From Myxococcales bacterium (GTDB taxonomy: Bacteria > Myxococcota_A > UBA9042), in the NCBI GenBank assembly GCA_009692465.1, contig SHZD01000019.1, forward strand, positions 1 through 45,485: a stretch of DNA of 45,485 bases, read 5' to 3'. Of this stretch, positions 3 to 43,673 are shown piece after piece (position 1 is the stretch's first letter; every line of letters begins with the position of its first letter). The notes beneath the pieces are model-generated. The model was not told where the DNA came from. It did not search any database and saw only the letters and a list, made by a program, of their open reading frames with translations. The translations under genes and the position numbers were made by a program.

Positions 3-90
3 GAGTAAGTCATTCTGGGACTGGGAGTAAGTCATTCTGGGACTGGGAGTAAGTCATTCTGGGACTGGGAGTAAGTCATTCTGGGACTGG
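3..90. repeat. Tandem repeat, 4 copies of a 22-bp unit GAGTAAGTCATTCTGGGACTGG
   Basis: Read directly: identical units at 3-24, 25-46, 47-68, 69-90; may continue upstream of the window. Confidence 0.97.
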
Positions 91-172
91 TTCCGTTTGC
101 TGGCTTGGTTGGTCGCTAAGCTCGCGTCCTGAAAGGCCGACTCGCCGCTCCCGTGTTGCCGAGATCGATCGA
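69..172 (+). repeat. Partial copy 1 of dispersed structured repeat (AAGTC-loop element)
   Basis: AAGTCATTC...TTCCGTTTGCTGGCTTGGTTGGTCGCTAAGCTCGCG...GCCGACTCGCCGCTCC...GAGATCGATCGAG aligns with the cores of the copies at 10563-10706, 18347-18487 and 43530-43673; the right end is missing or displaced. Confidence 0.75.
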
Positions 173-408
173 GCCACCCGAGGACAGCCCCCAGAGGACG
201 CCCACCCCCAAACGCCTGCTGCGCGTAACCCGTCGATGAGTTCGCTGGACTCATCGACCCCGCCATGCTTTGTTGTCGGCCCTCTTCCTCCTTGCGACGC
301 ACTACAAGTGCGCCTCAGTCGTCAGAGCGCCTCCGCCTCGCCTTGCGGGCGCCTGTTTCCGCTCGCTTCGGCAATGAATGTAAACACCCTCTTAGATTTG
401 CCTAGGCC

Positions 409-8203: not shown

Positions 8204-9063
8204 GGCAACACAAGCTCCACCGATGTTGTCCGCCCAGAATGTACCCAGACTTTGGTTTCGGCCTTGACGCCTAACCTCTTGTTTTCAAGCGTGATAACGT
8301 GCGATCCAGAGGCAATCGTCCAGCTGATCACGGGCGTCGACTCGCCAATGGCCACGCCGTCGATAGTCACTTCGGCGCTTGGAACACTATCAATGAAAAT
8401 ATACCCTTGGGTGCCCATGGTCCCTGTCGGTGGCTGATAGGCAATGTCACCTGAGACGGCCAGAGTCACCTGCCGCACGACATTGATCAAAGTCGCGAAC
8501 CGGCGATCGGGGTGGCTGAACGGATCGGCCACTAGAACCGTCGCTTCGCGACCTCCCAGCCGAAACGAGAGGTCGAACACCGGCACTGTCGAACGCGCCG
8601 GTCCTAGGTGCGGGTTGTTCGGATCAAACGGCGGAATCACAGCGACTGGCTTTCCCTTTGCCTTGCCCGCGGATGCAGTCGGCGTCGGCGCTTCAGGCAG
8701 GCGCATGCTCAAGAGACCCTGATCGCGCAGAAAGCCGAAAAGCCGCCGAACGTCCTCTTTGCGGATCAGATCGGTCTTGCTTATCACGTCGCTGCGGCCC
8801 ATGAATCCCCGAACATTGGAGACAACACCCGCATTGCCACGCATCGTCACTTCGTAGGCCAAGTACTGATAAGGACCCGGATTGGCCCGCAAAGCCACGC
8901 GCGCCCACGAGTCTTCCAATTCTGAGTCCGTCGGCAGTTGCGTCGAGGTGATAGCCGTCGGCAGTGGCGATTGATCTTTCGTCAGTGCCCAAGCTTCGCT
9001 GGCCCCGGGCGTCACTGTTGCAAGCGTCGTCAAAAGAACCAAAAGAAAACTAAGTAGATTCAT
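8200..9063 (-). CDS. PEGA-domain secreted protein
   Basis: Signal peptide MNLLSFLLVLLTTLATVTPGASEAWA; C-terminal GYIFIDSVPSAEVTIDGVAIGESTPV...GSHVITLE PEGA motif. Confidence 0.75.
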   Translation of the reverse strand: MNLLSFLLVLLTTLATVTPGASEAWALTKDQSPLPTAITSTQLPTDSELEDSWARVALRANPGPYQYLAYEVTMRGNAGVVSNVRGFMGRSDVISKTDLIRKEDVRRLFGFLRDQGLLSMRLPEAPTPTASAGKAKGKPVAVIPPFDPNNPHLGPARSTVPVFDLSFRLGGREATVLVADPFSHPDRRFATLINVVRQVTLAVSGDIAYQPPTGTMGTQGYIFIDSVPSAEVTIDGVAIGESTPVISWTIASGSHVITLENKRLGVKAETKVWVHSGRTTSVELVLP

Positions 9064-10555
9064 GAGGTCCACCATCGGCAACCCGATCAGCGGCGGCGGT
9101 AACTGGGGGTGGAGTGTCCCCATGCTCGCCATTGGGCTGGGTGGCGCCGCCATTTGGTGCAGCGCTGTCTGTGGAGGCTGGTCGCGGCGTCTCCCTTGCC
9201 TGTGCCAGCTTTTGATGCTGGTCGGTATTGCGAAGGGGGCCTTCAAATTCAGTACCCGCGTAGCGTCCAACCGGTCGACCCGGATCCGGTGTCGGGCTGG
9301 CAGGCAGGCGTTCGCGGCTTTTGCCATGTTCGCGCCGCAGACGTTCAACGGTTCGACACACGTAACTTGCGGTCTCTGCGACCGGTGACAGCGGCGAGAC
9401 TTGGGCCGTCCGGCTGGCATGTTCGCTCAGTTCCGGCGATAGCAAGCGTACGACTGTTGGAATCGCCGCCTTTCGATCGGCAAGCAGTAGCCCCACATGC
9501 AAATTGACGGAGTCCAAGCTGGTCAGCGCCATCACCACGGCGGCATGCCAAGCGCCGGCCAAATCCAGCGTTTCGTCGACTGTCGCGTCGCCAACCACGA
9601 CCGGAATGCCCGCCGCTCGCAGTCGCTGCACGTTGCCTAGGCCGCCGTCGCGCTCCACCACGACGACATGAACGCGACGCTGGTGCAAGATCTCAGCCAC
9701 GCGAGCGCCGACATTGCCTGCGCCAAGCACGACCACGTGGTCATGCAAATTCACCGGCGCCGGTTGCACCACTCCGGCCAGTCGGCGCTGCATCAACCAA
9801 TCGAGCAGCAACAGGGTCGCGGCCACCAGTGCTGCGCGATCGGCCAATGTCAGCAGCACCGCCAGCCAATGAATCGCAGGCGCCAACTTGGCAACGGTGG
9901 GCGCCGCGCCGGTAAAGACCCAGCTTGCGGCCAGCGCCAACGCATCCACGCCCTGCACCTTGAGGGTCGACGCCAGAACCAAAATACCCGCAACCGTAGT
10001 CATTAAAGACGTGAGCAGCACTGCCCACAGCGCTGTGCGAATCCGCACGGATTGCGGCGTAGGCCTGCGAACTTGTGGACCTTTGTGACCGCTACTGAGC
10101 AACTGCAGAGCCAAATCCGCCGCAACTGGCGCGGTGACCGAACCCATCGAATAGGGTTCCACATGCGGCACGCTCACGCGCAGGAACCTGACCAAGGTCG
10201 GATCAGAAACCCGAACCAGCATCGGCACATCTGGGCTTTTACGCCGCACCAGCAAGCACGCGTCGACATTGCCGGAGTCATTGTCCGCGGCCAAAATCAC
10301 TGCGCCTAGAGTCGAAAAGTCTTGACGGGCGAGATCGTGTTCCCACGCCGCGCTACCGTTGATGATGCCGATGCCCAGACTCTGCAGCTCAGAACCCTGC
10401 CGCGCCAACTCGGCTGGAGTCATCAGCGCAGTCACCGGAACGCCCAGCGCGTGCAGGCGATGGACCACGGCGACGCCGACATGGCCGAGACCGACCACGA
10501 GGATCGGGTGCTCCGTCGAGGACTTACGGCGCGTTGAGGCTGGACTATCAGTCAC
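9050..10555 (-). CDS. Membrane protein with two TrkA-N (RCK) NAD-binding domains flanking TM segments
   Basis: Two Rossmann motifs ILVVGLGHVGVAVV and VVVLGAGNVGARVAE separated by hydrophobic segments; the ORF-track extension to 10669 is translated repeat, so the GTG at 10555 is preferred. Confidence 0.8.
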   Translation of the reverse strand: MTDSPASTRRKSSTEHPILVVGLGHVGVAVVHRLHALGVPVTALMTPAELARQGSELQSLGIGIINGSAAWEHDLARQDFSTLGAVILAADNDSGNVDACLLVRRKSPDVPMLVRVSDPTLVRFLRVSVPHVEPYSMGSVTAPVAADLALQLLSSGHKGPQVRRPTPQSVRIRTALWAVLLTSLMTTVAGILVLASTLKVQGVDALALAASWVFTGAAPTVAKLAPAIHWLAVLLTLADRAALVAATLLLLDWLMQRRLAGVVQPAPVNLHDHVVVLGAGNVGARVAEILHQRRVHVVVVERDGGLGNVQRLRAAGIPVVVGDATVDETLDLAGAWHAAVVMALTSLDSVNLHVGLLLADRKAAIPTVVRLLSPELSEHASRTAQVSPLSPVAETASYVCRTVERLRREHGKSRERLPASPTPDPGRPVGRYAGTEFEGPLRNTDQHQKLAQARETPRPASTDSAAPNGGATQPNGEHGDTPPPVTAAADRVADGGPHEST

Positions 10556-10562
10556 GGCGGCC

Positions 10563-10706
10563 ACTAAGGGCGTGTAAAAGAATAACTCGATCGATCTGCG
10601 AAAAGAACGGAGCAGCGAGTCGGCTGTAAAGACGCGAGCTTGCGACCCACGCAGCAAGCAAACGGGCACGGTAAATGAATGACTTATTCATTTACGAGCC
10701 CTAAGC
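10563..10706 (-). repeat. Copy 2 of dispersed structured repeat (AAGTC-loop element)
   Basis: Inverted CTAAGGG/CCCTAAG ends; perfect hairpin GTAAATGAAT-GACTT-ATTCATTTAC at 10671-10695; core homologous to copies 1, 3 and 4. Confidence 0.92.
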
Positions 10707-11981
10707 GTTGGAGTGTTGAGTCGCGGCGTTAGCAGCGCCGGAGGGCAGGGCGCCAGCCGTAATTAGGGCCTCGAGGACTTGCGCCTCCGTCAGCGTGGAG
10801 TCGGCCACTTTGGCGCGGCCTAAAATAGCTTGAATTCGGGATTCGGTCGGTTCGAGATCGTGATCCAGCAACCACATTTCGACATTGGCCTTGCCACTGT
10901 AAAAACCGATGTCGATCATCTGCTTACAGCCGACTTCATGAGCGGGAACGGAGCTGTATACCGTGTCGGCAAGATCGCGCCGCCCGATCTTGATGGCCTT
11001 GGCGATAGCCGCAGCGTGCACGCCCGTCGCCGTGCGAAAGGCATCGGTGCCAAATGCAGGATAATTATACGGAATCGGCACGCCATAGTACCGCGAGACT
11101 GTTTGGACGTACTGCCGCAGGCCAGACAGTGAATGATCCCAGACCTTGAGCAGCCTCAAATTCAACAGGATTTGGTCAATTGACGCATTGCCGACGCGCT
11201 CACCAACGCCCAAACAGGTGCCGTGAACGCGATCAAACCCCAGCTCGAGCGCCGTCAGGCACAGCGGGACTGCTAGACCGCGGTCATTGTGCCCATGCCA
11301 ATCGAGCGCAACTTGAGCGCCAGTCTCGGCGACGACACCTCGGGTAAATTCCAACAAGTTGGCCAAACCATCGGGCGTAGCGTGGCCAACGGTGTCGCAT
11401 AGAATTAGCCGGGTCGCCCCGTGGTCGATGGCGGCCTTAAACAACGTGCGCAGAGTATCCGGATGCGCGCGAGTGGTGTCTTCAGTGACAAAACTAAACG
11501 GCAGTTGATTGTGGATGCTCAAGTCCGCCGCCGCGACGACCAGCTTGGTCATGTGGTCGACGTCCCAGTTTTCGACCAATTGGCGCACCTGCGAACTTCC
11601 CAAGAACGCGCACACTTCAATCTCGACGCCAGTCTTGTGGGCGATGTTGGCAATAGCAGTGATATCAGCTGGATGCGTGCGCGCTGCGCAATTGGGCACG
11701 ATCCGCATGTGCTGGTCGCGGATCTCTTCGACCAAACGGGTCACATCAGCTACGGCCAGCGCACCCGCCCCTGGCAAGCCCACATCGAGAACGTCGATCG
11801 CCAACGCTTCCATACAATGCAGGATTTCGAGCTTTTGGCCGATGGGCGGATTGGTAATCGAGGGCGACTGAATCCCATCGCGCAAGGTCTCGTCGACCAA
11901 GGCAAACCCCGGGCGAATCGGCGGTTTGTCGCGCTTGAGTTCGTTCCAGTCGTAAATAACATCTGAATTGGTCGCTGACAT
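10701..11981 (-). CDS. 2-isopropylmalate/homocitrate synthase-family (DRE-TIM/HMGL-like) enzyme
   Basis: LVDETLRDGIQSP motif, LCDTVGHATPDG, DWHGHNDRGLA, GVGERVGNASID; substrate not resolvable from sequence alone. Confidence 0.85.
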   Translation of the reverse strand: MSATNSDVIYDWNELKRDKPPIRPGFALVDETLRDGIQSPSITNPPIGQKLEILHCMEALAIDVLDVGLPGAGALAVADVTRLVEEIRDQHMRIVPNCAARTHPADITAIANIAHKTGVEIEVCAFLGSSQVRQLVENWDVDHMTKLVVAAADLSIHNQLPFSFVTEDTTRAHPDTLRTLFKAAIDHGATRLILCDTVGHATPDGLANLLEFTRGVVAETGAQVALDWHGHNDRGLAVPLCLTALELGFDRVHGTCLGVGERVGNASIDQILLNLRLLKVWDHSLSGLRQYVQTVSRYYGVPIPYNYPAFGTDAFRTATGVHAAAIAKAIKIGRRDLADTVYSSVPAHEVGCKQMIDIGFYSGKANVEMWLLDHDLEPTESRIQAILGRAKVADSTLTEAQVLEALITAGALPSGAANAATQHSNA

Positions 11982-14093: not shown

Positions 14094-14195
14094 GCGTGGA
14101 CTGAGCCAGTGCGGCGTGGACTTAGCCAGTGCGGCGTGGACTTAGCCAGTGCGGCGTGGACAGCCAGTGCGGCGTGGACTTAGCCAGTGCGGCGC
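14094..14195. repeat. Tandem repeat, about 5 copies of a 20-bp unit GCGTGGACTTAGCCAGTGCG (one 18-bp copy)
   Basis: Read directly, beginning 3 bp after the TAG stop of the nitrite/sulfite reductase. Confidence 0.95.
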
Positions 14196-18346: not shown

Positions 18347-18487
18347 ACTAAGGGTCCGTGCAAAATCAAGTCGATTTTGCACCCCGGCCCATTGCATGCT
18401 TGGTGGGTCGCTAACTCCCAGCTTTGCAAGCCGACTCGCCGCTCCGTTCCACACGCAGATCGAGTTATTCTTGCACGCGCCCTAAGA
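18347..18487 (+). repeat. Copy 3 of dispersed structured repeat (AAGTC-loop element)
   Basis: Ends CTAAGGG/CCCTAAG; perfect hairpin GTGCAAAATC-AAGTC-GATTTTGCAC at 18358-18382; core homologous to the other copies. Confidence 0.93.
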
Positions 18488-18494
18488 GGTTCCA

Positions 18495-21400
18495 ATGATG
18501 GTGCCAGTCGACGCCGCTGTATTGACCGATCCGGCGGACGTCGAACAGCTAGCTAAGTCTTTGCAAGACCAACTGGCCTCTGGGGAGTCCGTGGCCGTTG
18601 CCTTGTTGCAATTCTCCGCCCAAGAGCCCCACCCGCGCGTTCGCGCTGCTCTGTTGCACACCGCCGCAAAGTTGGTGCTGTCGGGAGATCCAGAGCGAGC
18701 GACGGATCTATATCGCGAATCCTTTCGCCTTTTTCCCTCAGTTGACGTTGGCAGGTCATTAGCAGCCCTGACGGCCGACGCGCCGGTGTTTGCGCGATTG
18801 TTCCGTCATGGGCATCTCGTCGATGCCACCGCGGTGTTGGCGGCGGAAGGTCCAGCTTGGGCCGATACGCTTTTGGATGCGGCGCGCAGCCATGTCAATC
18901 AAGGTCACGGTCGGGCCGCAGTGGCCGTTTTGGACCGCCTGCTGGCCGGCAGGCCGAATCTAAGTCTCGCCCGCGAGCTGATGGAGACAGCCACAGCCCA
19001 AGTCGAAGCTCGACAGGAAGGCTTGACAGCTCAAAGACTTGCATTGGCTGAGTGCGATCCAGGCGACCGAGCTGAGAGTCTGGTGGCCTATGCCGAACTT
19101 TTGCTGGCTGGGGACGAAGCATTAGACGATGCCGCCGCGGTATTGGCCGACGCCGTCGACTCTGGTGCCGATCTGGCTTCGGTCGCGCCCTTATGGGTAG
19201 AAGTCGCTCGTGCTCAGGGAAATAATGGCGAATTGACTAAAGCGCTGGCCTGCTCGCTGGATGCCGGCAGTGGCTTGCCCAAGCGACTGCAGCACGCCGA
19301 CGAATTAGTCAATATTCCCAGCGTTGACCGGGTCGCGCCTCGAGCTGCGCTGGCTGCATTGCGGGTTTTGAGCGAAGCGATGCCGGACGATGCGCCGATC
19401 GCCGCCCGTTTGGATGCAGTCACTCGATTGGCTGGCCCGGAGCCTGAAGCGCAACTCGAAGACATGCGCATGCGTACGGTCAGGGAGCGCGACCGCCTTG
19501 GTGAGACTGTGGCCTGTTTGGGGCTGGCATCTCTCGCATTGGCCAAACAAGACTGGCCAATGGCCGAGAGACATTACCGTCGCGTGCGGACCCTGTCGCC
19601 ACAAGACGCTGAGGCCTTGGACTTTTTTGAGCAGTTGTATCGTCAATCTGGAGATCACAAACGCCTGTTGGTTGCGCTTAGTCAGCGCTTGGGCGCGACC
19701 GAAGGCCGCGAGACCGTTCGGATCGCCCTTGAAATGGCCCGACTGTGCGAAGGGCCACTGGAATCCCCGGACCGCGCATTGGAGGCCTATCAGCGGATCT
19801 TGACCGTACAGCCCGACCACGAAGGGGCTCTCAATGCGCTGGAAACGCTCAACACCAAGTTGCAGCGGTGGCCGGCAGTGCGCGAGGCGTTGGAGCGCAA
19901 TGCGCGAGCGCAATTAGCCAAAGTGGCAGTTGACCCGCGGACCAAAGATGCCGCAATTGCGACTTTGACCAAGCTGGTCGACTTGTGCCAAGACCCTCAG
20001 CGGTGTGACGACCCGGCGGCGACCGTGCCGTTTGCCCGCCAGATTATTGACCTTGCACCCGATCACGATCAGGCGCTAGCGATTGTCAGTCAACATCTCA
20101 ACGATCAAGGCCGCTATGCGGAGTTGGTCCAGTTGCTGCGCCGCGCTGCCGGTTTCACCAATAACACGAATAGTTCGATCTTGTTGCGCCTAGGCAATGT
20201 TCTAGCCGATGAGCTTGGTCAGCCTGCAGCGGCCATGGATGCGTGGCGCGCAGCCCTAGACGCCCACCCAGGCTTAATCGAGGCCCAATTGCGCTTGCGG
20301 CGTGCTGCGCGGGACACCGGCGACTCCGGGGCCGTTTTGGCCTCGCTTCTGGACGAGATTGGGTCAATCGTTGGCGCGGCAGCCATTGATTTGGCCACGC
20401 CGGTGCCAACCATTTTGGCGAAGATGCCAGCAATTGCCGCTGTCGACGCGCAGACGGCCCCGGTCCAGTTGCCCGCACAACTTCTGGAGGCCGCGGTGTT
20501 GGCCGAGGCGCGCTCGGATGGTAGCCGGCTGGCAGGCCGCCTCTATGCTCTGATTTTAACAGACGATCCCAACCATGACGGCGCAGTCGCCGGTCTGGTG
20601 CGTTGTTGGTCGTCTGGCGACGATGGCGCCCAGTTGATCCAGGTTCTACAGCGCTTAGTCCGTGATGAGACTGTTGTTTCGCGCAAAGTGCAGTTGCTGG
20701 CTAACCTCGCCGGCACGCAGCTTAATGTCGGCTTTGACTTTGCGGGTGCTGGAGCTACCGCCTCCGCGGCGCTGCAGTTAGCGCCTGACCACCAACAGGC
20801 TCGGGAGATCTGGATCGACGCTGCTTTGGCCTTGGGCGACATGATTGCGCTGCGCCAAGCGTGTGGCAACGACGCTGCTGGCCTCGAAATGTTTGCCGCG
20901 CGCGCCGGCGCATTGGCGGCGGAGTCGTCAAAAGTGCAGCGATTTGCCCAATGGCGAGCGGCTGCGGCTGTGTTGCATGACGATCTAGGCGATGCCGAGC
21001 GCGCAGCTCTCATGCTTTCAGACGCGGTTCAGGCCTGTCTTGCCGCCGCAAGTGAACCGGTAACCACAGCGACGCAAGAATTACTGAGCAGCGAAGAGCG
21101 CACTGAACTGTGCGATTTGGCAAGAAAATATGCCCATGCGGCCGGGTTGCGCGGTGCCGAGCGATTAGCTTTGGAGGCGATGCTTGAGGTGACAGAGGGC
21201 GCCGCTCAGCGCCAGGCTAAACTCGCCTTGGTCGACTTGATGGCGGTTTCTGGTGAGACCGACGATGCCGAAGCGATGGCGCGCAGTCTGGCTGAGGAGG
21301 CGATCGGCGACCGTGACACGACTATGCTTGCCGCTTCGCTGGATCGATTATGCGATTTGGCCGCTGCTGGCATTGCGACCAGCCCAGAGTCGACTTGGGA

Positions 21401-24400
21401 ATCGGTTGCGGATTTGTTGGCGCTGGCGGCGGATGACGGCGAATTGCGCACGTCCATGCGCGAATCGTTGCTGTCGCGCTGCTTGGCCAACGCCGAGCGC
21501 CTGAGTCAAAGCGAGGAGTTTTGGGCTTGCGTCGACCGGTTGGCCGGTGCGGGTTTGGTGTGTTGTACCACCGCAGACGACAATTCGACCCGGCAGCGGT
21601 TGCTTGAACTGCAAGAGCAGGCGTGCATTGAGCTCGGCAATTGGGGAAATGCGGCAGCCGCGGCCGAAGCTCTGGCTGGTGTATCTACGGGTGAAGCAGC
21701 TAGCGGCGCACTGCTCCGAGCAGCGGAACTGGCCTTTGATCGCTTGGCGGACAGCGCTCGCGCCGAACGCTTGTACCGACTGGCGCTGGCAGCCAACCCG
21801 ACTGATGGCAGCGCTTGGGCCGGCTTGGCTGCAACCGTGCGTGCCAGTGGCGATTCCACCGCAATGGGTCTAGTGCTGGATGAGATCTTTGCGGTGCCCA
21901 GTATTGGCCGCGATTCGCGTGCCCGCTTTGCCCTGGAGCGGGCAGAACTGGCGGCCACCCTTGACGAGGCTGATTTGCTGGGCTTGCTATGGCCCGTTGT
22001 GTCAACGTTTGCCGATTGGGATTCCCTAGCCGAATCAGAAGAAGCCGTGCTGGCGATCGCGGCCGGTCAACTTGATGTCCCAGAATTGGGCTCCATCGTT
22101 GCCGAACGCCTTCGGCCCATTTTTGCCAAACATGGTCGAATTGAAGAGGAAGTTCGGTGCCGCGAGATCATTGCTTTGCACGCTCCCCGCCAAAGTGCTG
22201 CGCGAATTACCGGATTAATCGCGGTAGCTGAAAGTGTGGCGGACAGTTCGCCGCGCCAAGCATTTGACGCTCTTTTTCACGCGGTCGCTGACGCACCAGA
22301 ACGCGCAGATCTACTTGAGAAATTGACAAGTTTGGCGGACCGCATTGGCGGTCGAGACCGCTTACAGAAGCTACTGCGAGGCATGGCCGGTCTGGATGTG
22401 TCGGGCGAGTACGTCGCGCTTCCCGAGGCCAACCGTCATGCAGCACTCGCTCGCTTGGCCCAATCGGCCCAAGATCGCGGCGATGTGCCCGCTGCTATTG
22501 AGGCTTTGGTCGCATGGCGCACCCTTCAGCCGGAAAACCTCGCGCCGCTAGTTGCTCTTCAAGCTTGCTGGCAGGCGACCGGTGACACGGAAAACCTCGC
22601 GGAAGTACTGCAGGCCCAAACGACGCTGGGTCCGGACGCGAGCCGCGCGGCTGCGTGGCTGGGCCAAATCGCGTTGACCCTGACCATTTCAGCGGACGTC
22701 AGCGCGGCACTGGCTTTGGCAACGGCAGCCACTTCGGCCGTAGGTGCCCGGCCCGAATTGTGGTTGCGGCGGATTGAACTGGCCCGAGAACTCAACCAGC
22801 CGCTGTCGCTCGCCACCGCCATTGCCCAAACTTTGACTGTTTTGCCTGGCGCATTGACCGACCGCTTCGCCGCGGTGCGCGAACTGGCAATTGCTCTGCA
22901 AAACTCTGGGCCAGAACACGCGACCGCGGCCATCGAACGGTGGCTTGAGATTCTGGACAACGATCCAGCCGACGATGCGGCAATCGCTAGTTGTTTCGAT
23001 TTGTTGCCTGCCCTCACTACTGACGGCAAGGCCGACGTTCGCGGGCTGCTCGACCGGCTGGAACTCATTGCAGACGCGCGTGGCGAAGGCGAACGCGTTG
23101 ACCAACTGCTGACCGTCCGAGCAGATGTGGCCGTCGATGCCGCCGATAGGACAGCGATCTTGTTGCGGCAAGCCCAGGCCCGCGAAAACACCTTGGGCGA
23201 CGCCGACGGTGCCGCCCAAGTGTTGGCTTTGGCAGCACGCTTGGCTCCGCAATTGGACGCCGTTCTGCCCGCGCTGACAGCGACATGCCGATTGGCGTTG
23301 GCCGCCGGATCCGCTGCTGCAACGATCAGCGCCTGTCTGGAGAGTGCGGCAGCCGCTCGCGATCTCGTCGCCGACCGGCTGGCCTTGCGCCGGTTGGGTC
23401 TGTCACTTATCGCCGATTCCTCGGGACTGGAAGCGCTACGCAACCTGCTAGAAGGCGTTTTGCGCGATGACCCAGACGACGAATCCGCGGCTGGCCGTCT
23501 AGACGCTTTGGCCACGGTGAGCGGTGACGTCAAAGCGCGGTTGGCACTGCTGAGCCTGCGGATTGCTCGCGCGGCCGACGCGGACACTGCTGGCCAATTG
23601 TGGATAGAGCGGGCGCAACTGGCGACCAATGCTGGGCTTACTGACGACGCCAAAGCGAGCTACCGCGCCTGCGCCAGCGCCGCCAATGCCGATATTCGCA
23701 CAGCAGCCAACGCTGGTTTGGCAGAAGTGTGTGAAAACTCAAATGACCCCGCCGGTGCTGCTGCCGCGGTCGCTGCGCTGCTAACTGACACAGCGGATCT
23801 CGAGGATCGCATTGCGCTAACCCTGCGCGCCGTCGGATTGTGGCAGACCAGCGGAGCAGTTACCGCCGCGCAGGAGGCCCTGCGGAGTGTTCTCACCGAG
23901 GCGCCGCGCAATTTGGCTTTGCATACCGCATTGGAAGCAAGCCTAGCCGACAGTGGCAACTCCAAGGCCTTGGTTGAGCATTTGGCCAATGGTTGGAATC
24001 GCCTTGACAGCTTAGAGGAGGGCGAGCGAGAGGCGATGGCACAACGCTGGCTGGCTGCTGTGCAATCCAGCGCTGGTTCTGGTGATGAACTGACGGCGGC
24101 GTGTAAGTCACTGACAGAGCAAGGTCTGGCTATTGCAGCTGTCGATGAAACTCTGGAATCGCTTACCCAAGCTGAATTCGCGGGCGAGAAATGGCCAGCA
24201 TGGTTGCTGCAGTCTTGGCAAATTATTGCTGATCGCGCCCAACATTCGGGTGCCACTGAAGGCGAACTTGCAGCACGCCTGCAATTGGGTGCAATGGCGG
24301 TCGACCGGTCCGTCCAATTGGCGGCTATTCGCCGCTCTGCAGTGCTGCTGGAAGCGATCGGTGAACCGGACGCCGCTTTGGCGAAATGGTACGAACTGCT

Positions 24401-27400
24401 GGATCTAGGCCAAGCGACCCTACCAGCCTGGACCGATGACGACGCCATTGAAATCTTGCGGCTTGGTGACGTACTTGAGCGCAATTCGGAAGCAGCTGAG
24501 TATGTCCAAATTGCCGCCGCAGAATTGGCTGACCCCGACCGCAAGATCAAGCTTCTGCTCTTGCTGGCTGGGCGCGCACAGTCCGCAGGTGATGCCGAGC
24601 AACAATGGGCACTTGCGCAGCAAATCCTCGTTGATGCCCCTCTGCACAGCGCTGCGCTGGCCGTTCGCGGCGCGGCTTTGCAAGCTTGGTCGGCGGCTCC
24701 GACTGCGGCGCGGGTCTCGCACGCTCAGGCTATGGTTGCAACCGCCCACGACGATCCGGCCAAAGCAGCCGCACTAGTGGCTCTTGGCGCGCTGTTGCTG
24801 GCCGAAACAGCGACCGCAAAATTGGGCGCGGAGCAGCTCGTCGCTGCAGTCAAACTCGATCACGCCCAGAATCAAGCCGCATTTGAGTTGGTTGCCGATA
24901 ACGCCGATGTGGCCGAACAGACCAATGAAATCGCGCGCCTTGCCGCAGGGCGCTCAGTCGCCGCTGCGGCATGGTTGGAAGGTCGTGCCCGCGCCTTGTC
25001 CGATTGGTCGGATCTCGATTCACTGATCGAAGCGCGCGCGCGCGCAGCCGCCACTGATGACGTCGACGCAGCGGTCGCGGCATGGCTGGAGCTGGCCGAC
25101 TTGCGCTCCGCCGAGCGAGACGATGCCAAAGCTGCGGCTGCGGCATTGGACGCAGCCCGAGCCCTCGCGCCGTCCAACGACACTGTGCTCAGGCTGCGCT
25201 TGCAGCTGGCGGAAACTGCTCAGGATCATTCCGTTGTCGGCGATCTGTGTCAGACTTTGGCCGGCAGCGCTGACGCCGACGAAGCTGGCCTGCTTTGGTA
25301 CCGTGGCGCCCAAGCCTATGCTGATGCTAGTGATACCGACAAAGCGCTGCTCTGCTGCGTTGCTGCGCTGCAAGCGGACACTTCGCAAGTGGATGTTCAC
25401 CTGCTGCAGGCTCGCATTCGCAGCAGCAATGGTCAGCAAATTGAGGCAATTGGTGACTTGGACAGTGCCGCTCGGGCCATGGCCGACGCCGGCGCGGCTG
25501 ATGGGGCCGCGGCGCTGTGGTTGGCGGCGGTCCCCTTGGCGCGCGAAAGTGGCGACGCTGAAAGTTGGGGACGGGTCCTTGCTGCAGCCATTCGCTCTGG
25601 GGTCGCCACGGCACAAACGGCGCAGTTGGCGAAAGAAGCTGAACTTGAAGGGATTTGGCTCAAAAGGGGCGTCACAGATGTAGCTCCAGCGCTCTTTGCC
25701 GCTGGCTTGCACGCTGAAGCGCTAGCACTTCGCAAGAAATTGGCTCAAACGGCGACGGGAGTTGACCGTTTGACGGCCCAACGCGGCTTGGCGCAGCAAA
25801 CTGCTGAGGACGGCGATCCCGCTTCCGCAGTCGCGGCCCTGTTTGAAGTGGCCATTAGTGCCGAACTGCCGGCAATGGAACTGCCCGATGTGCTTGGCGA
25901 AGCCCAGGCCATTGCTTTAGCAGCTGGCATGGTAGAAGACTGGTTGGATCGGGTGGCCGAGATCATCGCCAGTGATGTCATCGCCCAAGACCAATTGTCC
26001 GCCGTGGTCGGATTCGCAGCGCAAGTGGCGGCCGATGCAGACCTCGCAGACCGCGGCGCCGACTTGTGGGACCAACTTTGGGAACAACTACCCGACGACG
26101 TCGATGCCCGCGACGGCACCTTGGCGCTGCGCCGTTTGGCCAACGACCCCGGTCGGTTGGCGGCAGCCTTAGAAAAAGCATTAGTTTTCGCCGAGGCGAG
26201 CGCCAAAACCGGGCTGCGTATTGAGTTGGCGGCGCTCAAGCTCGACTCACTCGGTCGGCCCCGCGAGGCATTGCGGTTGGTGCAAGATGTACTGGGCGTC
26301 GAGCCCAACAACGAAGACGCAACCGCATTGGCCGAGCGGTTGGCCGACAATGCTGTCCTTGGCGATGAGACCTTGACCTTTTTGGACCGCCACCTGCGCA
26401 CGGCCGAAAACTGGCTTGGTTTGGAGCGAGTTCTGACCAAGCGCGTGGCGCGAGCGAAAACCGCGGCGGCAAAGTCGGAATTGGCCCAAATGTTGGCGCA
26501 GTTGCAATCTGAGCAGTTGAGCCACGCCGACAGTGCTCTGGGCAGTCTTTGGGCGGCAATTCAGGCAGAACCGCGGTTGACGACTCTTGAATCCATCGAG
26601 AGGCTTGCGCGCCCGGTCGACCACGACGACTTGCTGGCCCGAGCCTATGGCTTGGTGCTGGCATCGCCGTTACGCCCCGATGATCGCTCGCAAGTCCTGC
26701 TCCGCGCGGCCCTCCTCGATAAACGCCGCGGTGACCTTGCTGCAGCTGAAAGGCGCTTGCGTAACGCTTTGTCGGCAGCTCCGCAGTTGAGCGCAGCTTT
26801 CGATCTCTTGGATGGTTTGCTCGATGAGCAGGGCCGGGCTCCCGATCAATTGGTGTTGTTGGCCGATCGGGCGAACAAAGTCAGTGACCCAGCCGAAAAG
26901 CTCACCTTGTTGAATCGGACGGCCGAATTGGCGCGCGCTTTGCAGGACGCTGACGCTGCGATCGACGCCTACGCACGTCTTGCGGACTTGGATGCCACGG
27001 ACGTCGATTCTCGCGCCGCGATTGTCGAATTGCTGCGCGAAGCTGGGCCATCTGTGCGCTTGCCAATCGCGCTGGTCGCGTTAGCCGAAGTCACTGAAAC
27101 CGGAGTTCAAAAAGCCGAATTGCTCTGCGAAGCTGCGCGATTACAGCCAGCTGGTGCGTCGGGCGAAGAAAAGGCCGCCGAGCTGTACCGCGCCGCCTTT
27201 GCCGGTGACGGCAGCAGTGACGAGGCGTATGTGTGGCTGGAGCGGCACTGCCACCACAATCCGCGGATGTTGGCCCCTTTGTATCAAGCGCGTGCCGATG
27301 GCCTGCCGTTGGGGCCCACCCGCACGCTGACTTTGCGCAAGCTGGCCCACGCGCATCGCGATATGAACGACGGCGCTCAGGCTTGCACCGCATTGCAGCG

Positions 27401-28580
27401 GGCTCACGCCGAAGATCCACTCAACGCTGCGGTGCTCGACGAGCTGCAGAAGACCTCTGAATCTTTGCGTAATTGGGACAGCTGGGTTGCAGCGACCGAG
27501 CACAAGCTGGCGGCCGAGACCCGCAAAGAGGCTCGCGCTGTTCTTTTAGTGCAGCTGGTGCGCGTTCTGCTAGTCGAGTTGGAGGATGCCACCCGTGCGC
27601 AGGCGCTGGTCGCCGAACTGCAGAAGATCGCTCCCAAAGATCCCAATACCCGCCAAGTTGTTGCCATGCTCAAGTCGCACAGTGGCGATCCGGCGGAAGC
27701 TGCGGCAGGTCTTGAGCAAGTGTTGCGCGAGACGGACGATCCTGCCGCCCTGTTGGCGATTCATCAGCAGCTTGCGGACCTGTACTTGGGCGTGTTGAAC
27801 AATCCAGGCAAGGGCATTCGCGAGTTGCAGCGGATGCTGGTCTTGGATCCAAAGCGCTGGGAATTTCGCCGCACACTTTGTGATCTTTATGCCCAACGCC
27901 AGTCGTATGAAGCCTTGGCCGAGTCGCTCAAGCAGTGGCTGGCCCAGTTTGAGGAATCCGCGGAAGACAAGCGCACGCTGCACTTGGCGCGTGGCATGGA
28001 GATCGCTGGTTTGATGCGTGAACTTGCCGATGTCCTAGTGACCTTGGGCAAACCGCAAGAGGCGACGCAGATGTTGCGGCGTGCTTGGGAACTCAGTGGC
28101 AACGAAGCCGAATTGAACGCCAAGCTCGCACCGTTGCTTGAAATGACTGGCGAAGTCCAATTGGCGGCCGAGTTGCACGACTGGCTGGCGGCGCACTTTG
28201 CCACTGACAAAGCCAAAGTGGCGACGCATTTGTCCAAATCTGCGTTGCTGCATGAGCGGCGTGGCGACTTTGCCGGTGCCCGCGAGCGCTTCAAGAAGGC
28301 CATGGAATCTGCCCCCGGCGACGACGAAGCGACCTTAGGTAGCGCTCGCGTGTGTTTAGAGCTCAACGAGCCTGACCGAGCGATGCGGTTGTTTGACCTT
28401 GTGGCTCGCAAGCCTGCGCACACAGTCGGCGCCGATTTGCGTGCCGACGCAAACTTTGGCATGGGGCGCTGCCGGCTCAAGCGCAATCAACGCGATCAAG
28501 CGCGCGCCTGTTTTGAACAAGCTTTGGCTCTAGTCCCTGGCCATAAAGCCGCAGCTGAGGCGTTGCTCGGCCTAGCGTAG
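18495..28580 (+). CDS. Giant (3361 aa) alanine-rich TPR-repeat protein
   Basis: Single uninterrupted 10-kb ORF; many TPR-like helices (e.g. DRALEAYQRILTVQPDHEGALNALETL, DQARACFEQALALVPGHKAAAEALLGLA). Confidence 0.92.
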   Translation: MMVPVDAAVLTDPADVEQLAKSLQDQLASGESVAVALLQFSAQEPHPRVRAALLHTAAKLVLSGDPERATDLYRESFRLFPSVDVGRSLAALTADAPVFARLFRHGHLVDATAVLAAEGPAWADTLLDAARSHVNQGHGRAAVAVLDRLLAGRPNLSLARELMETATAQVEARQEGLTAQRLALAECDPGDRAESLVAYAELLLAGDEALDDAAAVLADAVDSGADLASVAPLWVEVARAQGNNGELTKALACSLDAGSGLPKRLQHADELVNIPSVDRVAPRAALAALRVLSEAMPDDAPIAARLDAVTRLAGPEPEAQLEDMRMRTVRERDRLGETVACLGLASLALAKQDWPMAERHYRRVRTLSPQDAEALDFFEQLYRQSGDHKRLLVALSQRLGATEGRETVRIALEMARLCEGPLESPDRALEAYQRILTVQPDHEGALNALETLNTKLQRWPAVREALERNARAQLAKVAVDPRTKDAAIATLTKLVDLCQDPQRCDDPAATVPFARQIIDLAPDHDQALAIVSQHLNDQGRYAELVQLLRRAAGFTNNTNSSILLRLGNVLADELGQPAAAMDAWRAALDAHPGLIEAQLRLRRAARDTGDSGAVLASLLDEIGSIVGAAAIDLATPVPTILAKMPAIAAVDAQTAPVQLPAQLLEAAVLAEARSDGSRLAGRLYALILTDDPNHDGAVAGLVRCWSSGDDGAQLIQVLQRLVRDETVVSRKVQLLANLAGTQLNVGFDFAGAGATASAALQLAPDHQQAREIWIDAALALGDMIALRQACGNDAAGLEMFAARAGALAAESSKVQRFAQWRAAAAVLHDDLGDAERAALMLSDAVQACLAAASEPVTTATQELLSSEERTELCDLARKYAHAAGLRGAERLALEAMLEVTEGAAQRQAKLALVDLMAVSGETDDAEAMARSLAEEAIGDRDTTMLAASLDRLCDLAAAGIATSPESTWESVADLLALAADDGELRTSMRESLLSRCLANAERLSQSEEFWACVDRLAGAGLVCCTTADDNSTRQRLLELQEQACIELGNWGNAAAAAEALAGVSTGEAASGALLRAAELAFDRLADSARAERLYRLALAANPTDGSAWAGLAATVRASGDSTAMGLVLDEIFAVPSIGRDSRARFALERAELAATLDEADLLGLLWPVVSTFADWDSLAESEEAVLAIAAGQLDVPELGSIVAERLRPIFAKHGRIEEEVRCREIIALHAPRQSAARITGLIAVAESVADSSPRQAFDALFHAVADAPERADLLEKLTSLADRIGGRDRLQKLLRGMAGLDVSGEYVALPEANRHAALARLAQSAQDRGDVPAAIEALVAWRTLQPENLAPLVALQACWQATGDTENLAEVLQAQTTLGPDASRAAAWLGQIALTLTISADVSAALALATAATSAVGARPELWLRRIELARELNQPLSLATAIAQTLTVLPGALTDRFAAVRELAIALQNSGPEHATAAIERWLEILDNDPADDAAIASCFDLLPALTTDGKADVRGLLDRLELIADARGEGERVDQLLTVRADVAVDAADRTAILLRQAQARENTLGDADGAAQVLALAARLAPQLDAVLPALTATCRLALAAGSAAATISACLESAAAARDLVADRLALRRLGLSLIADSSGLEALRNLLEGVLRDDPDDESAAGRLDALATVSGDVKARLALLSLRIARAADADTAGQLWIERAQLATNAGLTDDAKASYRACASAANADIRTAANAGLAEVCENSNDPAGAAAAVAALLTDTADLEDRIALTLRAVGLWQTSGAVTAAQEALRSVLTEAPRNLALHTALEASLADSGNSKALVEHLANGWNRLDSLEEGEREAMAQRWLAAVQSSAGSGDELTAACKSLTEQGLAIAAVDETLESLTQAEFAGEKWPAWLLQSWQIIADRAQHSGATEGELAARLQLGAMAVDRSVQLAAIRRSAVLLEAIGEPDAALAKWYELLDLGQATLPAWTDDDAIEILRLGDVLERNSEAAEYVQIAAAELADPDRKIKLLLLLAGRAQSAGDAEQQWALAQQILVDAPLHSAALAVRGAALQAWSAAPTAARVSHAQAMVATAHDDPAKAAALVALGALLLAETATAKLGAEQLVAAVKLDHAQNQAAFELVADNADVAEQTNEIARLAAGRSVAAAAWLEGRARALSDWSDLDSLIEARARAAATDDVDAAVAAWLELADLRSAERDDAKAAAAALDAARALAPSNDTVLRLRLQLAETAQDHSVVGDLCQTLAGSADADEAGLLWYRGAQAYADASDTDKALLCCVAALQADTSQVDVHLLQARIRSSNGQQIEAIGDLDSAARAMADAGAADGAAALWLAAVPLARESGDAESWGRVLAAAIRSGVATAQTAQLAKEAELEGIWLKRGVTDVAPALFAAGLHAEALALRKKLAQTATGVDRLTAQRGLAQQTAEDGDPASAVAALFEVAISAELPAMELPDVLGEAQAIALAAGMVEDWLDRVAEIIASDVIAQDQLSAVVGFAAQVAADADLADRGADLWDQLWEQLPDDVDARDGTLALRRLANDPGRLAAALEKALVFAEASAKTGLRIELAALKLDSLGRPREALRLVQDVLGVEPNNEDATALAERLADNAVLGDETLTFLDRHLRTAENWLGLERVLTKRVARAKTAAAKSELAQMLAQLQSEQLSHADSALGSLWAAIQAEPRLTTLESIERLARPVDHDDLLARAYGLVLASPLRPDDRSQVLLRAALLDKRRGDLAAAERRLRNALSAAPQLSAAFDLLDGLLDEQGRAPDQLVLLADRANKVSDPAEKLTLLNRTAELARALQDADAAIDAYARLADLDATDVDSRAAIVELLREAGPSVRLPIALVALAEVTETGVQKAELLCEAARLQPAGASGEEKAAELYRAAFAGDGSSDEAYVWLERHCHHNPRMLAPLYQARADGLPLGPTRTLTLRKLAHAHRDMNDGAQACTALQRAHAEDPLNAAVLDELQKTSESLRNWDSWVAATEHKLAAETRKEARAVLLVQLVRVLLVELEDATRAQALVAELQKIAPKDPNTRQVVAMLKSHSGDPAEAAAGLEQVLRETDDPAALLAIHQQLADLYLGVLNNPGKGIRELQRMLVLDPKRWEFRRTLCDLYAQRQSYEALAESLKQWLAQFEESAEDKRTLHLARGMEIAGLMRELADVLVTLGKPQEATQMLRRAWELSGNEAELNAKLAPLLEMTGEVQLAAELHDWLAAHFATDKAKVATHLSKSALLHERRGDFAGARERFKKAMESAPGDDEATLGSARVCLELNEPDRAMRLFDLVARKPAHTVGADLRADANFGMGRCRLKRNQRDQARACFEQALALVPGHKAAAEALLGLA

Positions 28581-32435: not shown

Positions 32436-32451
32436 CTTCTCAGATATTCTG

Positions 32452-32681: not shown

Positions 32682-34673
32682 ATGGCCGACCAAATGATGC
32701 ATCGGACTACTCTTGAGGACGGCCGCCCAGCCGTGCGTTTCAGTGGTCGAATCCTATTTCTTTATGAAGATCAGAATCTTGTGCGACGGCAGCTCGCCGG
32801 CGAACAGGTGGCTTGGGATCCGAATGCACCGCTCATTGACAACATTTCCACCGACGAAATTACGCCGGCGTGGGTGTGTTTCTACTTTGACGAAACACTG
32901 GGGGACTATTCGCTGGTCGGCTTGCGCGGAGGAGCCATAGAGCCAAACAGCGTCAAGAATGGCGGCTTTTCGGTGGTGGTCTCGGGCAAGTCCAAAGGCT
33001 GCGGTTCGTCACGCGAGACTGCCCCCTATTCGGAACAAGCAGCTGGAGTGCGGTTGGTCATTGCCCAAACGATTGAGAAAATCTACGGGCAAAATAGCCA
33101 AAACATTGGATTGTACACGAGCACTGATTTTGGCCTGATTCCTCGAATTGCGGCCGGCGAAGCGATCGCCATCGATGAGTTTACCCGCGGATTGGACCCG
33201 GTTGCCGCCCAAATCGTGCTTAGCGGTGGCTTGTTTGCCTACAATCGCAACCGCATGACCGGTGATATAAAGCCACCAGCACTTGCGACCGCTGCTCGGC
33301 CGATGAATCTAGTTGAGAAGATCATTGCGCATCATGCGATTGTCGACGCTGCTTCAGGCCAAACTGGGGCAACGGCGGTGCAACCCGACGATGCGGTGTT
33401 TGTGCGCACCGGTGTTCGCTTCAGCCACGATTACACCACCGCAATGGCTCAGGCTAGCTTTCATGCCGCCTTGGGCGCTGATGCTAAAGTTACTGATCCA
33501 CAATCGATTTTCGCTTTTCGCGATCACCTGACGTTCCTCAAAGGCGTCATGTCCGCAAAACACAAGGCGATGGGGCTCGATGCTCAGTCCGACCAACTAG
33601 CTATAATTCAACGCCAATTTTGTGCAGAGCAGGGCATCCGGTTATATGACGAAAGTGCCGACGGCTCCGGTTCCGAAGCCATATGCCACAACGCGGTCTT
33701 GGAGGATTTGGGCACTCCGGGCGACATCATTGTTGGCACCGACTCACACACCTGTACCGGAGGCGCTCTCGGTGCGTTTGCGTTTGGCGTCGGCTCCACT
33801 GACATGGCCAACACTTGGTATAGCAAGGATATTCGCGTCACCGTCCCCCATTCGGTGCGCTTTATCATCTCCGGTGTTTTGCGCGCTGGATTGTCCGCCA
33901 AGGACGTAATGCTGCGGATCTTGGCGACACCTTTCATCAAAGATGGCCACGCCATCGGCAAAGTGTTGGAATTTTGCGGATCGGGCGTGCAAGCCATGTC
34001 GATGGACGAACGCGCCACCTTGACCAACATGGCCGTGGAGGCCGGTGCAACGTCGGGAATTATTGAGGCGGACACGACCACATTGGCCTGGTTGCAGCAA
34101 ATTCGACCCCAAACCACGCTCGAAAAGCTGAGCGGCGTCGTGTTTCAATCCGACGCAGACGCCCACTATTTCGCCAGCTTCGACATCGATTTGGACCAGC
34201 TCGATTTGATGGTGGCGACTCCAGGCGATCCGCGCAATGGGGTTGCCATTGGCGATCTGGGTCCGCCGATCAAAGTCGATCTCGCCTATGGTGGTTCGTG
34301 TACCGGCGGCAAAATGGCAGACATGGACATGTACGCGCTCGTACTGCGCGCTGCTGTGGACAAGGGGCGTCGCGTCCATCCGGACGTCCAGTTGTACATT
34401 CAATACGGCAGTCAAAAAATCAAACAATATGCCGTGGATCGCGGTTATCCAGCGCTATTTGCCGCAGTTGGAGCGCACGTGATTGACCCGTCTTGCGGTG
34501 CCTGTATCAATGCTGGCCCTGGCGTGTCGAAAACTGCAGATACCGTCACAGTGTCCGCAATCAACCGAAACTTTCCCGGTCGTTCCGGCCCAGGCAAAGT
34601 GTACCTCGCTAGTCCAATGGTTGTCGCGGCTTCCGCAATTGTGGGCCACATCGCCTCGCCTGACCAGATTTAG
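32682..34673 (+). CDS. Aconitase/3-isopropylmalate dehydratase superfamily, fused, small (swivel) domain N-terminal
   Basis: N-terminal swivel-like SKGCGSSRETAPYSEQAAGVRLVIA; then GTDSHTCTGGALGAFAFGVGSTDMA, GGSCTGGKMADM, DPSCGACINAGPG, INRNFPGRSGPGKVYLASPMVVAASAIVGHI. Confidence 0.88.
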   Translation: MADQMMHRTTLEDGRPAVRFSGRILFLYEDQNLVRRQLAGEQVAWDPNAPLIDNISTDEITPAWVCFYFDETLGDYSLVGLRGGAIEPNSVKNGGFSVVVSGKSKGCGSSRETAPYSEQAAGVRLVIAQTIEKIYGQNSQNIGLYTSTDFGLIPRIAAGEAIAIDEFTRGLDPVAAQIVLSGGLFAYNRNRMTGDIKPPALATAARPMNLVEKIIAHHAIVDAASGQTGATAVQPDDAVFVRTGVRFSHDYTTAMAQASFHAALGADAKVTDPQSIFAFRDHLTFLKGVMSAKHKAMGLDAQSDQLAIIQRQFCAEQGIRLYDESADGSGSEAICHNAVLEDLGTPGDIIVGTDSHTCTGGALGAFAFGVGSTDMANTWYSKDIRVTVPHSVRFIISGVLRAGLSAKDVMLRILATPFIKDGHAIGKVLEFCGSGVQAMSMDERATLTNMAVEAGATSGIIEADTTTLAWLQQIRPQTTLEKLSGVVFQSDADAHYFASFDIDLDQLDLMVATPGDPRNGVAIGDLGPPIKVDLAYGGSCTGGKMADMDMYALVLRAAVDKGRRVHPDVQLYIQYGSQKIKQYAVDRGYPALFAAVGAHVIDPSCGACINAGPGVSKTADTVTVSAINRNFPGRSGPGKVYLASPMVVAASAIVGHIASPDQI

Positions 34674-34825
34674 TCATTGTCGCTGCCCAGATTTAGTCAT
34701 TGTCGCTGCCCAGATTTAGTCATTGTCGCTGCCCAGATTTAGTCATTGTCGCTGCCCAGATTTAGTCATTGTCGCTGCCCAGATTTAGTCATTGTCGCTG
34801 CCCAAATATGATCAATGCCCGTGCC
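34665..34825. repeat. Tandem repeat, 6 perfect copies plus 1 degenerate copy (and partial trace to about 34840) of CAGATTTAGTCATTGTCGCTGCC (23 bp)
   Basis: Units start at 34665, 34688, 34711, 34734, 34757, 34780; degenerate unit 34803-34825. Confidence 0.97.
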
Positions 34826-34862
34826 CAGATTTGATCATCCTTTTTCCCCCGCAGGAGGCGCT

Positions 34863-42552: not shown

Positions 42553-43551
42553 TTGAGCGTTGCTACGACCATGGCCTTGACCACCGCCCTGCGCCCTCAT
42601 CGAATTCGCCGCCTGCATTGGCAGACGCTGATTAAGGCTGTCGAATTTGCCCAGTTGTCGTTGGACGACCCTCAGGTGCTAGTGGCTGCCAGTCGCTTTT
42701 TTCGGCGCAAGGTGGCTAGCGGGCGCGATATCGAAAGCCTGCTCGTCGCTAGCGACAGCGAAGTCCACTTTATTCCGTGGGTGCTTTGGGACGCTGAGAT
42801 TGGCCGCAGTGGAGGCTTGGGCAAAGTGCTGGTGTCCAAGGCCCGCCACAAAGAAACCCGAGAGATCTTGCGAGCTCTAGTGGCTTGCCGGCCCGAAGTG
42901 TGGCGCATTGACGCCGTAGTGGGCGAACGGGCCAGCTTGCGCAGGTTGCGCGACGATGCTGTCGCCACCCTCGCGGATCCTATTTTGAGTTGCGGTGTCG
43001 CCGTTGGCGAGCTGTTGGTGGCAAGAATCGCTGACTTGGGCGACGTGCAGATTTTGGACGCGGTCCACGAAGCATTGCCGGGACGGCATGAACCAGCCAT
43101 GCGCCGAGCTGCCAAGCGCATCGCCAAATTGCCTGCTGAAGCGCAACTGCTGCACTTGCGGCGCGCTGCGTTCTTTTGCGTGACTTGCCCAGATCCCGTT
43201 GACAATCGCCGCACTCGCCTGCCACGGACGGTGGTCACTTCGTTGGTATTTTCCGTAGCTAACGTGGACTCATTGCTGGCTGGGCTGCAACGATGCGCTG
43301 TCGGCGGCCTTGTGCAGGCCATCAGTCCAGAGCATTACCGCTTCACTCAAGCGTCGACTGACCTCACGGGCTGTGAACTAGCGCTGCGGCGGGGCCGGTT
43401 GCGCGCCACCATCGCCGATGCTGCTCAGTGCGGCAAATTGCGCGCCTTTGTCGAAGAACAGTTTGCGAACGCCGTTGCCTACGCCGTTACGGTGCATGAA
43501 CGCAAGGCGCGTATCGTCAGCGCCGTTGCGTTAGGAACTGTGACAATTTAA
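42553..43551 (+). CDS. Hypothetical protein, unknown function
   Basis: 332-aa ORF with TTG start; C-terminal codons lie inside repeat copy 4. Confidence 0.65.
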   Translation: MSVATTMALTTALRPHRIRRLHWQTLIKAVEFAQLSLDDPQVLVAASRFFRRKVASGRDIESLLVASDSEVHFIPWVLWDAEIGRSGGLGKVLVSKARHKETREILRALVACRPEVWRIDAVVGERASLRRLRDDAVATLADPILSCGVAVGELLVARIADLGDVQILDAVHEALPGRHEPAMRRAAKRIAKLPAEAQLLHLRRAAFFCVTCPDPVDNRRTRLPRTVVTSLVFSVANVDSLLAGLQRCAVGGLVQAISPEHYRFTQASTDLTGCELALRRGRLRATIADAAQCGKLRAFVEEQFANAVAYAVTVHERKARIVSAVALGTVTI

Positions 43552-43673
43552 GTCGATCGATTTGATTCTTGCCGGAGCGGCGTGTCGACTTGCAAAGTCG
43601 CGAGCTTGCGACCCACCTAGCAAGCAAATGGAACCCTGTGACAGAACAACTTGTTCTGTCACAGTTCCTTAGG
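43530..43673 (-). repeat. Copy 4 of dispersed structured repeat (AAGTC-loop element)
   Basis: Inverted AGGAACTGTGACA ends; perfect 12-bp hairpin CTGTGACAGAAC-AACTT-GTTCTGTCACAG at 43636-43664; core homologous to the other copies. Confidence 0.93.

Follow-up and report, generated by a model that had tools for sequence, protein, structure and literature searches.

An abundant MITE family with a constant core and variable ends, and its insertion between a synthase gene and an RCK gene in a Myxococcales genome

Bacterial MITEs derived from IS elements, such as RUP, Correia/NEMIS, Chunjie and MITEAba12, are short sequences without an ORF that carry TIRs, are flanked by target duplications and occur in high copy number between genes. 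For RUP, insertion within the transposase genes of IS elements is described as well (PMC2229807). MITEs have mostly been read as decayed IS elements in which the ends are the sole constrained part, and in the IS-derived bacterial families the ends are usually constant. ERIC, which is about 127 bp long, and IRU reach up to hundreds of copies and are mostly intergenic. The prokaryotic copy numbers quoted in the excerpts of PMC10969869 cited here go no higher than 711, which is the figure given for ERIC of Photorhabdus. REP/REPIN sequences, which are associated with RAYT, are likewise intergenic, hairpin-forming and numerous. Among IS elements, IS427/IS1031-like members of the IS5 family are relevant because of their 3-bp TTA/TAA duplication; IS1237 (IS5 family) has a DR of TTA/TAA and ends GAGGTGGTTTCAGTAGTCG (PMC2516522).

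Here we describe a family of short elements, one copy of which sits exactly between the stop of a synthase-family gene and the start of an RCK-type gene, with neither gene broken. That copy lies in the window, by which we mean the whole 45,485-nucleotide stretch of DNA that was analysed (Table 1). The family is a MITE family, because it has TIRs, TWA duplications, empty orthologous sites, nested insertions and an estimated ~1,200 copies, and its members are short, with neither an ORF nor a transposase gene. It resembles ERIC and IRU in size and in being mostly intergenic; its estimated copy number exceeds the 711 quoted for ERIC, and neither a 3-bp TWA duplication nor a variable-stem terminal hairpin is described for ERIC in those same excerpts. 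It shares the TTA/TAA duplication of the IS427/IS1031-like elements and has a similar end layout, finishing AGTCG. In contrast to the usual MITE pattern, variation here falls in the ends and the core stays constant, an unusual design for a MITE. In animals, SINEs that contain a V, CORE or Deu domain likewise keep this short, highly conserved stretch although their ends differ (PMC6887750), but this is an analogy only, since those are retroelements, the present element is a bacterial DNA transposon, and there is no homology. Our preferred explanation, to which we give a probability of about 0.87, is a non-autonomous MITE mobilised in trans by IS5-type DDE transposases.

Table 1. Features of the synthase–RCK locus and further copies of the element in the window
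Feature	Position	Strand	Basis or remark
Element, subfamily A, 134 bp: GGGCTCGTAAATG...TTTTACACGCCC	10568..10701	-	TSD and TIR limits; covariance model R1
3-bp TSD, synthase side, TTA on minus strand (TAA on plus)	10702..10704	-	
3-bp TSD, RCK side, TTA on minus strand (TAA on plus)	10565..10567	-	
HMGL-like (PF00682) synthase-family gene	10701..11981	-	TAG stop 10703-10701; the G is element base 1
TrkA-N/RCK-type gene (PF02254)	9050..10555	-	likely true start GTG 10555-10553, from start alignment with congeners
Repeat-derived peptide of ORF 9050-10669: LLRGSQARVFTADSLLRS			
Left-end hairpin, 10-bp stem GTAAATGAAT / ATTCATTTAC, loop AAGTC	10671..10695	-	sequence, folding, covariation
Left TIR GGGCTCGTAAATGAATAAGTC	10681..10701	-	17/21 match to right TIR; left-right covariation
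Right TIR, reverse complement GGGCGTGTAAAAGAATAACTC	10568..10588	-	TIR match; left-right covariation
Conserved core GCTTGCT..GTGGGTCGCAAGCTCGCG..GCCGACTCGCTGCTCCG, second small hairpin inside	10608..10659	-	cross-subfamily and cross-species identity
End sequences of the element family that a helper IS would be expected to carry: GGGCTCGTAAATGAATAAGTC, GGGCCCGTGCAAAATCAAGTC, GGAACTGTSMCAGAAYAAGTC			
Copy 3, subfamily B	18352..18482	+	TAA duplications 18349-18351, 18483-18485
Copy 4, subfamily C	43534..43668	-	TTA (+ strand) duplications 43531-43533, 43669-43671
Copy 1, degenerate subfamily D	3..191	+	22-bp tandem array makes up the hairpin part

Copy number and anatomy of the element

We scanned 1.245 Mb, ~21% of the genome, with a profile; this sample comprised the window and 60 stretches of 20 kb. 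It held 256 copies, making up 2.4% of bases, and a block-shuffled control held none, so the dispersed repeat proposed for this locus in the preliminary description is real. Scaled to the 5.82-Mb genome this gives ~1,200 copies, which is perhaps somewhat high because the stretches came from low-numbered or long contigs, many of them with known copies. Each of the three full window copies, used as a query, matched at least 40 loci, the 40 scored out of 231-569 candidates; those scored for the copy between the synthase and RCK genes matched at 86-100% identity and lay nearly all on other contigs. A 40-base core pattern occurred at 59 sites and its reversed form at none. The closest relatives are Myxococcales/Deltaproteobacteria MAGs. 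The covariance model detected the element in 13 of the 22 genomes searched in the order, all of one family, with at least 150 matches in each of G000, G002 and G004, and the core was detectable in other genera of that family. BLAST in the searched other families of the class returned no element, nor did the plasmid and phage collections; 80 viral-contig loci from a search with a 17-base core pattern proved on scanning to be chance matches. Rfam covariance models gave no match at the gathering threshold or at E<=1. The family is thus a very abundant MITE that matched no described element family in what was searched.

We set element limits from inverted repeats and duplications, and a covariance model made from 17 elements trimmed in this way also returned 10568-10701 for the copy at the locus. 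On the minus strand this copy reads GGGCTC-GTAAATGAAT-AAGTC-ATTCATTTAC-CGTGCCC-GTTT-core-...-GATCGATCGAGTTATTCTTTTACACGCCC, with a wider imperfect palindrome around the left hairpin (10664-10701). The hairpin had been described correctly to the base. Its stem was said to differ from those of copies 3 and 4 while the AAGTC loop was kept; the stems do differ within one architecture, but the loop of copy 4 is AAGTT, and AAGTC recurs at that copy's other end. Elements are typically 134-135 bp long (range 130-137 bp). At a separate locus (L135, 32-188), 50-bp core-only repeats stand head to tail with no ends.

Subfamilies A-E of the source genome were aligned with those of five congeners and a sister genus. 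The ~52-bp core had a mean pairwise identity of 80%. Values were lower for the spacer (44%), the right end (47%) and the hairpin stem (51%), the variable modules flanking the core spanning 44-56%. Two-sided changes preserved pairing at 8 of the 10 pairs of the left stem and at 4 of the 6 pairs of the core hairpin. Together the two hairpins gave a covariation score of 0.470, against 0.197 for the shuffled control and no more than 0.131 for the slid one; since relatedness inflates the shuffled value, the comparison by sliding is safer. The left and right ends also covaried with each other (0.369 versus 0.155). A left stem that is wholly different between subfamilies and still covaries is unusual. 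The copy at the locus folds better than its shuffles (z -2.75 as RNA, -3.01 as DNA), and a 10-pair helix is predicted to close the core.

The left end would hold the end sequence twice, as a hairpin of TIR, short loop and TIR', and with this doubling any change of end would be needed in three places. The hairpin-plus-core layout seems to have been preserved through many joint changes of stem and right end. We infer that the core has outlasted the ends because core and hairpin most likely aid mobilisation, by offering extra sites for the transposase or a host factor or by forming a structured strand, and that the ends follow changing transposases. The family may therefore serve as a testable case of how non-autonomous elements switch transposase partners.

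Two further subfamilies likewise have a left hairpin followed by this kind of core, with ends other than the TWA-flanked ones of A-E. Of the 32 copies of subfamily F (~133 or 153 bp), 19 are flanked by TA at both ends and none by TWA, and subfamily G (14 copies, mostly 139 bp) is in most cases flanked by CTA..TAG; a hairpin directly precedes the core in G too, although there the right end does not have it as its partner. A lone F terminal palindrome without a core, GAGAGCCGATCAAATCCTATTTGATCGACTCTC, followed by TAG, lies at L299 15591-15623. Within the IS5 family, duplications of 2 bp predominate in the IS427 group (PMC3281130), so F and G possibly use a second type of helper. Should the TA be a duplication, the family would be built the other way round from the usual MITE, with exchangeable ends on a conserved hairpin-core module.

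TA-type ends on the same core suggest that the hairpin-core module rides several transposition systems. A reading that refines rather than excludes the MITE explanation makes the module a passenger packaged into several transposon-end systems, IS5 types with TWA and others with TA. The core common to A-E, F and G, the position of the hairpin in G and the 2-bp duplications of the IS427 group all speak for it; TA, however, is self-complementary and could be part of the inverted repeat in F and G. Free exchange of modules was not seen either. For this comparison and for the target sites below, we called intact the 97 of 141 near-full copies whose left and right ends matched at 8 or more of 12 positions. 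Left end, core and right end were concordant in 83 of the 97 intact A-E copies, the rest differing mostly by small margins, which rules against free exchange of ends within the genome. We consider the passenger reading possible, though the odds are somewhat against it. Its stronger form is a little more doubtful still: a ~90-nt module, structurally conserved across the bacterial family and carried by at least three end sets (TWA and two TA-flanked types), would persist through a function of its own, either as structured RNA or ssDNA or by drawing in transposases or host factors.

Candidate helper transposases

In the source genome's own assembly, we found no transposase with the element's exact ends. 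PF13340 and PF13359 had no match there, which leaves a PIF-like helper (PF13359) without a candidate, and none of three PF01609 matches had element-type ends. PF07592 (ISAzo13) also had no match in this genome, but this result is uninformative because the PF07592 control likewise matched nowhere. A search of the 1.245-Mb sample for an autonomous element between paired ends returned only composite or nested cases. A helper may be missed because the assembly is fragmented and repeats exceeding the read length are likely missing from it.

Among the congeners, G002 and G004 have IS5-family transposase genes (PF13340), with TWA-adjacent ends GAGGGTGT.., and NF033580 matched both genes tested with it, which came from G004 and G023. 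These ends are not those of the MITE (GGGC.., GGAACTGT..), and the ends of the present element are identical to no IS found in the searched genomes. One of the congener IS5 ends continues ..AATAAGTCG; one that continues ..AAAATAAGTCG shares the sub-terminal AATAAGTC with the MITE, although the outer bases differ. The source genome also has a second MITE family, with GAGGGTGT ends. TWA duplications flank 7 of the 8 pairs listed for it; the remaining pair is spurious, and one other is a long-range re-pairing of the same ends. Because of the congener IS5 ends with their adjacent TWA, this second family and the DR of IS1237, an IS5-type transposase acting in trans is the most likely motor.

In G002, a copy of the MITE is inserted in an IS5-family transposase gene with a TTA duplication, truncating the gene, and a second copy abuts the other end. 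The truncated gene and the second, inverted element (L429, 544-1849) form a composite-transposon-like layout. Members of the second MITE family are 176-205 bp long with ends GAGGGTGTTTA.. (window ~198-398; L137 17413-17588; L273 4728-4925) and often adjoin the first family, with a TTA in common. Within an IS5-like transposase reading frame at L259 (~834-1030) there is a 19-bp tandem repeat, CGGGACAGTGTCGTGTGGT.

Target sites and stop codons

Of the 97 intact copies, 65 are exactly 135 bp long. The 3-mers on the two sides agree in 69, against 31 on average and never more than 44 after shuffling. The flank pairs were TTA/TTA in 40 and TAA/TAA in 25, with only 2 mixed, which shows a true 3-bp duplication rather than part of a palindrome. 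The preferred insertion site is (C/G)TWAG. Two nested insertions, one in a subfamily-A copy (L039) and one in a subfamily-B copy (L084), each have a TWA duplication.

Genes were called with a simple purpose-written codon-usage caller, and expected values came from 5-mer-matched TWA sites. None of the 65 copies with TWA duplications lay in coding sequence (46 expected), and 20 of the 65 overlapped a stop codon (1.9 expected), a 3-fold excess over non-coding sites (p 3e-6). With a 3-bp TWA duplication, an element can sit on a stop codon and the stop survives. This explanation of the stop-codon position was absent from the preliminary description. We propose end recognition by the transposase and insertion at TWA, with C-TWA-G as the best target; in a GC-rich genome such sites would often be stop codons, an element beginning with G would retain a TAG stop on insertion at TTAG, and insertions within genes would be purged. 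TWA insertion would thus place elements on stop codons without harm to genes.

The same position could be expected of a structured RNA or regulatory 3'-UTR module that the host keeps to stabilise or terminate transcripts past stop codons. The conserved, covarying structure, the frequent location directly past stop codons and the predicted closing helix of the core fit this reading, but we think it improbable. Neither orientation relative to tandem genes (25 to 14, p 0.11) nor which end lies at the stop codon (19 to 12, p 0.28) showed a significant bias, no T run follows the hairpin and no Rfam family matches. The position at stop codons is in any case largely explained by TWA targets and purging from genes. 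A REP/REPIN is more improbable again, whether its motor were a RAYT (Y1 tyrosine) transposase or an IS200/IS605-like single-strand mechanism. The terminal hairpin, the many copies and the intergenic location are what one would expect of it, whereas exact 3-bp duplications with clear TIRs are unexpected from a Y1 mechanism, and the near-fixed length of 130-137 bp also argues against it.

The insertion between the synthase and RCK genes

All five congeners examined (G001-G005; L240-L244) have the synthase and RCK genes adjacent, with a stop-to-start gap of ~3-15 bp and no trace of the element at the junction. The insertion is therefore lineage-specific, and apparently harmless to the flanking genes. 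These empty sites refute the idea of native intergenic DNA, or of a leader or attenuator specific to the RCK gene, in spite of the position between two co-directional genes and the good folding (z -2.75 as RNA), and the occurrence of the same sequence at the many other loci described above argues likewise. The preliminary description had itself named orthologous loci as the comparison that could decide this point.

Both termini lie where that description placed them, at the synthase stop and the RCK start, but its limits (10563-10706) were a few bases too wide on each side, beyond the exact element and reaching past the duplications. We joined the flanks in silico, which gave AACGC TTA GTGGCCGCC GTG ACT GAT, a TAG stop and, after it, a GTG start in alignment with the start codons of G004 and G002 (GTG/ATG). 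The element had been thought to supply the stop codon of the synthase gene. Since the pre-insertion site, CGC TTA GTG, already had a TAG, the stop is native; it was merely regenerated, its present form being the TA of the duplication plus the first G of the element.

The longer RCK ORF (9050-10669) begins within the element, at 10669. Ahead of the GTG at 10555 it has 34 codons of repeat, 1 of duplication and 3 of native leader, so that of the roughly 38 N-terminal residues first attributed to the repeat about 34 belong to it. The suspected N-terminal mis-annotation is supported, with the alignment of starts in the congeners favouring the GTG. Repeats of this kind generate false N-terminal extensions in gene annotation. 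Copy 4 acts at the other end of a reading frame, giving the gene at 42571-43551 a new stop, so that the protein ends ...ALGTVTI* rather than ...ALG*.

Several other features of the window were recorded. At the contig end, the hairpin arm of the subfamily-D copy contains four units of the 22-bp array GAGTAAGTCATTCTGGGACTGG (3-90). Further tandem arrays are present at 34660-34832 (23-bp CTGCCCAGATTTAGTCATTGTCG, 7.5 units) and 14094-14194 (20-bp GCGTGGACTTAGCCAGTGCG, 5 units). A dispersed sequence, GAACTGCCCGGAGTGAATCCGTGCAGTTTCGGACAGTTGCCGCCGTC, occurs with variants at window position 32450 and at L270 19324 and L280 2863. A 3361-aa ORF with TPR-type repeats (18495-28580) starts directly past copy 3.
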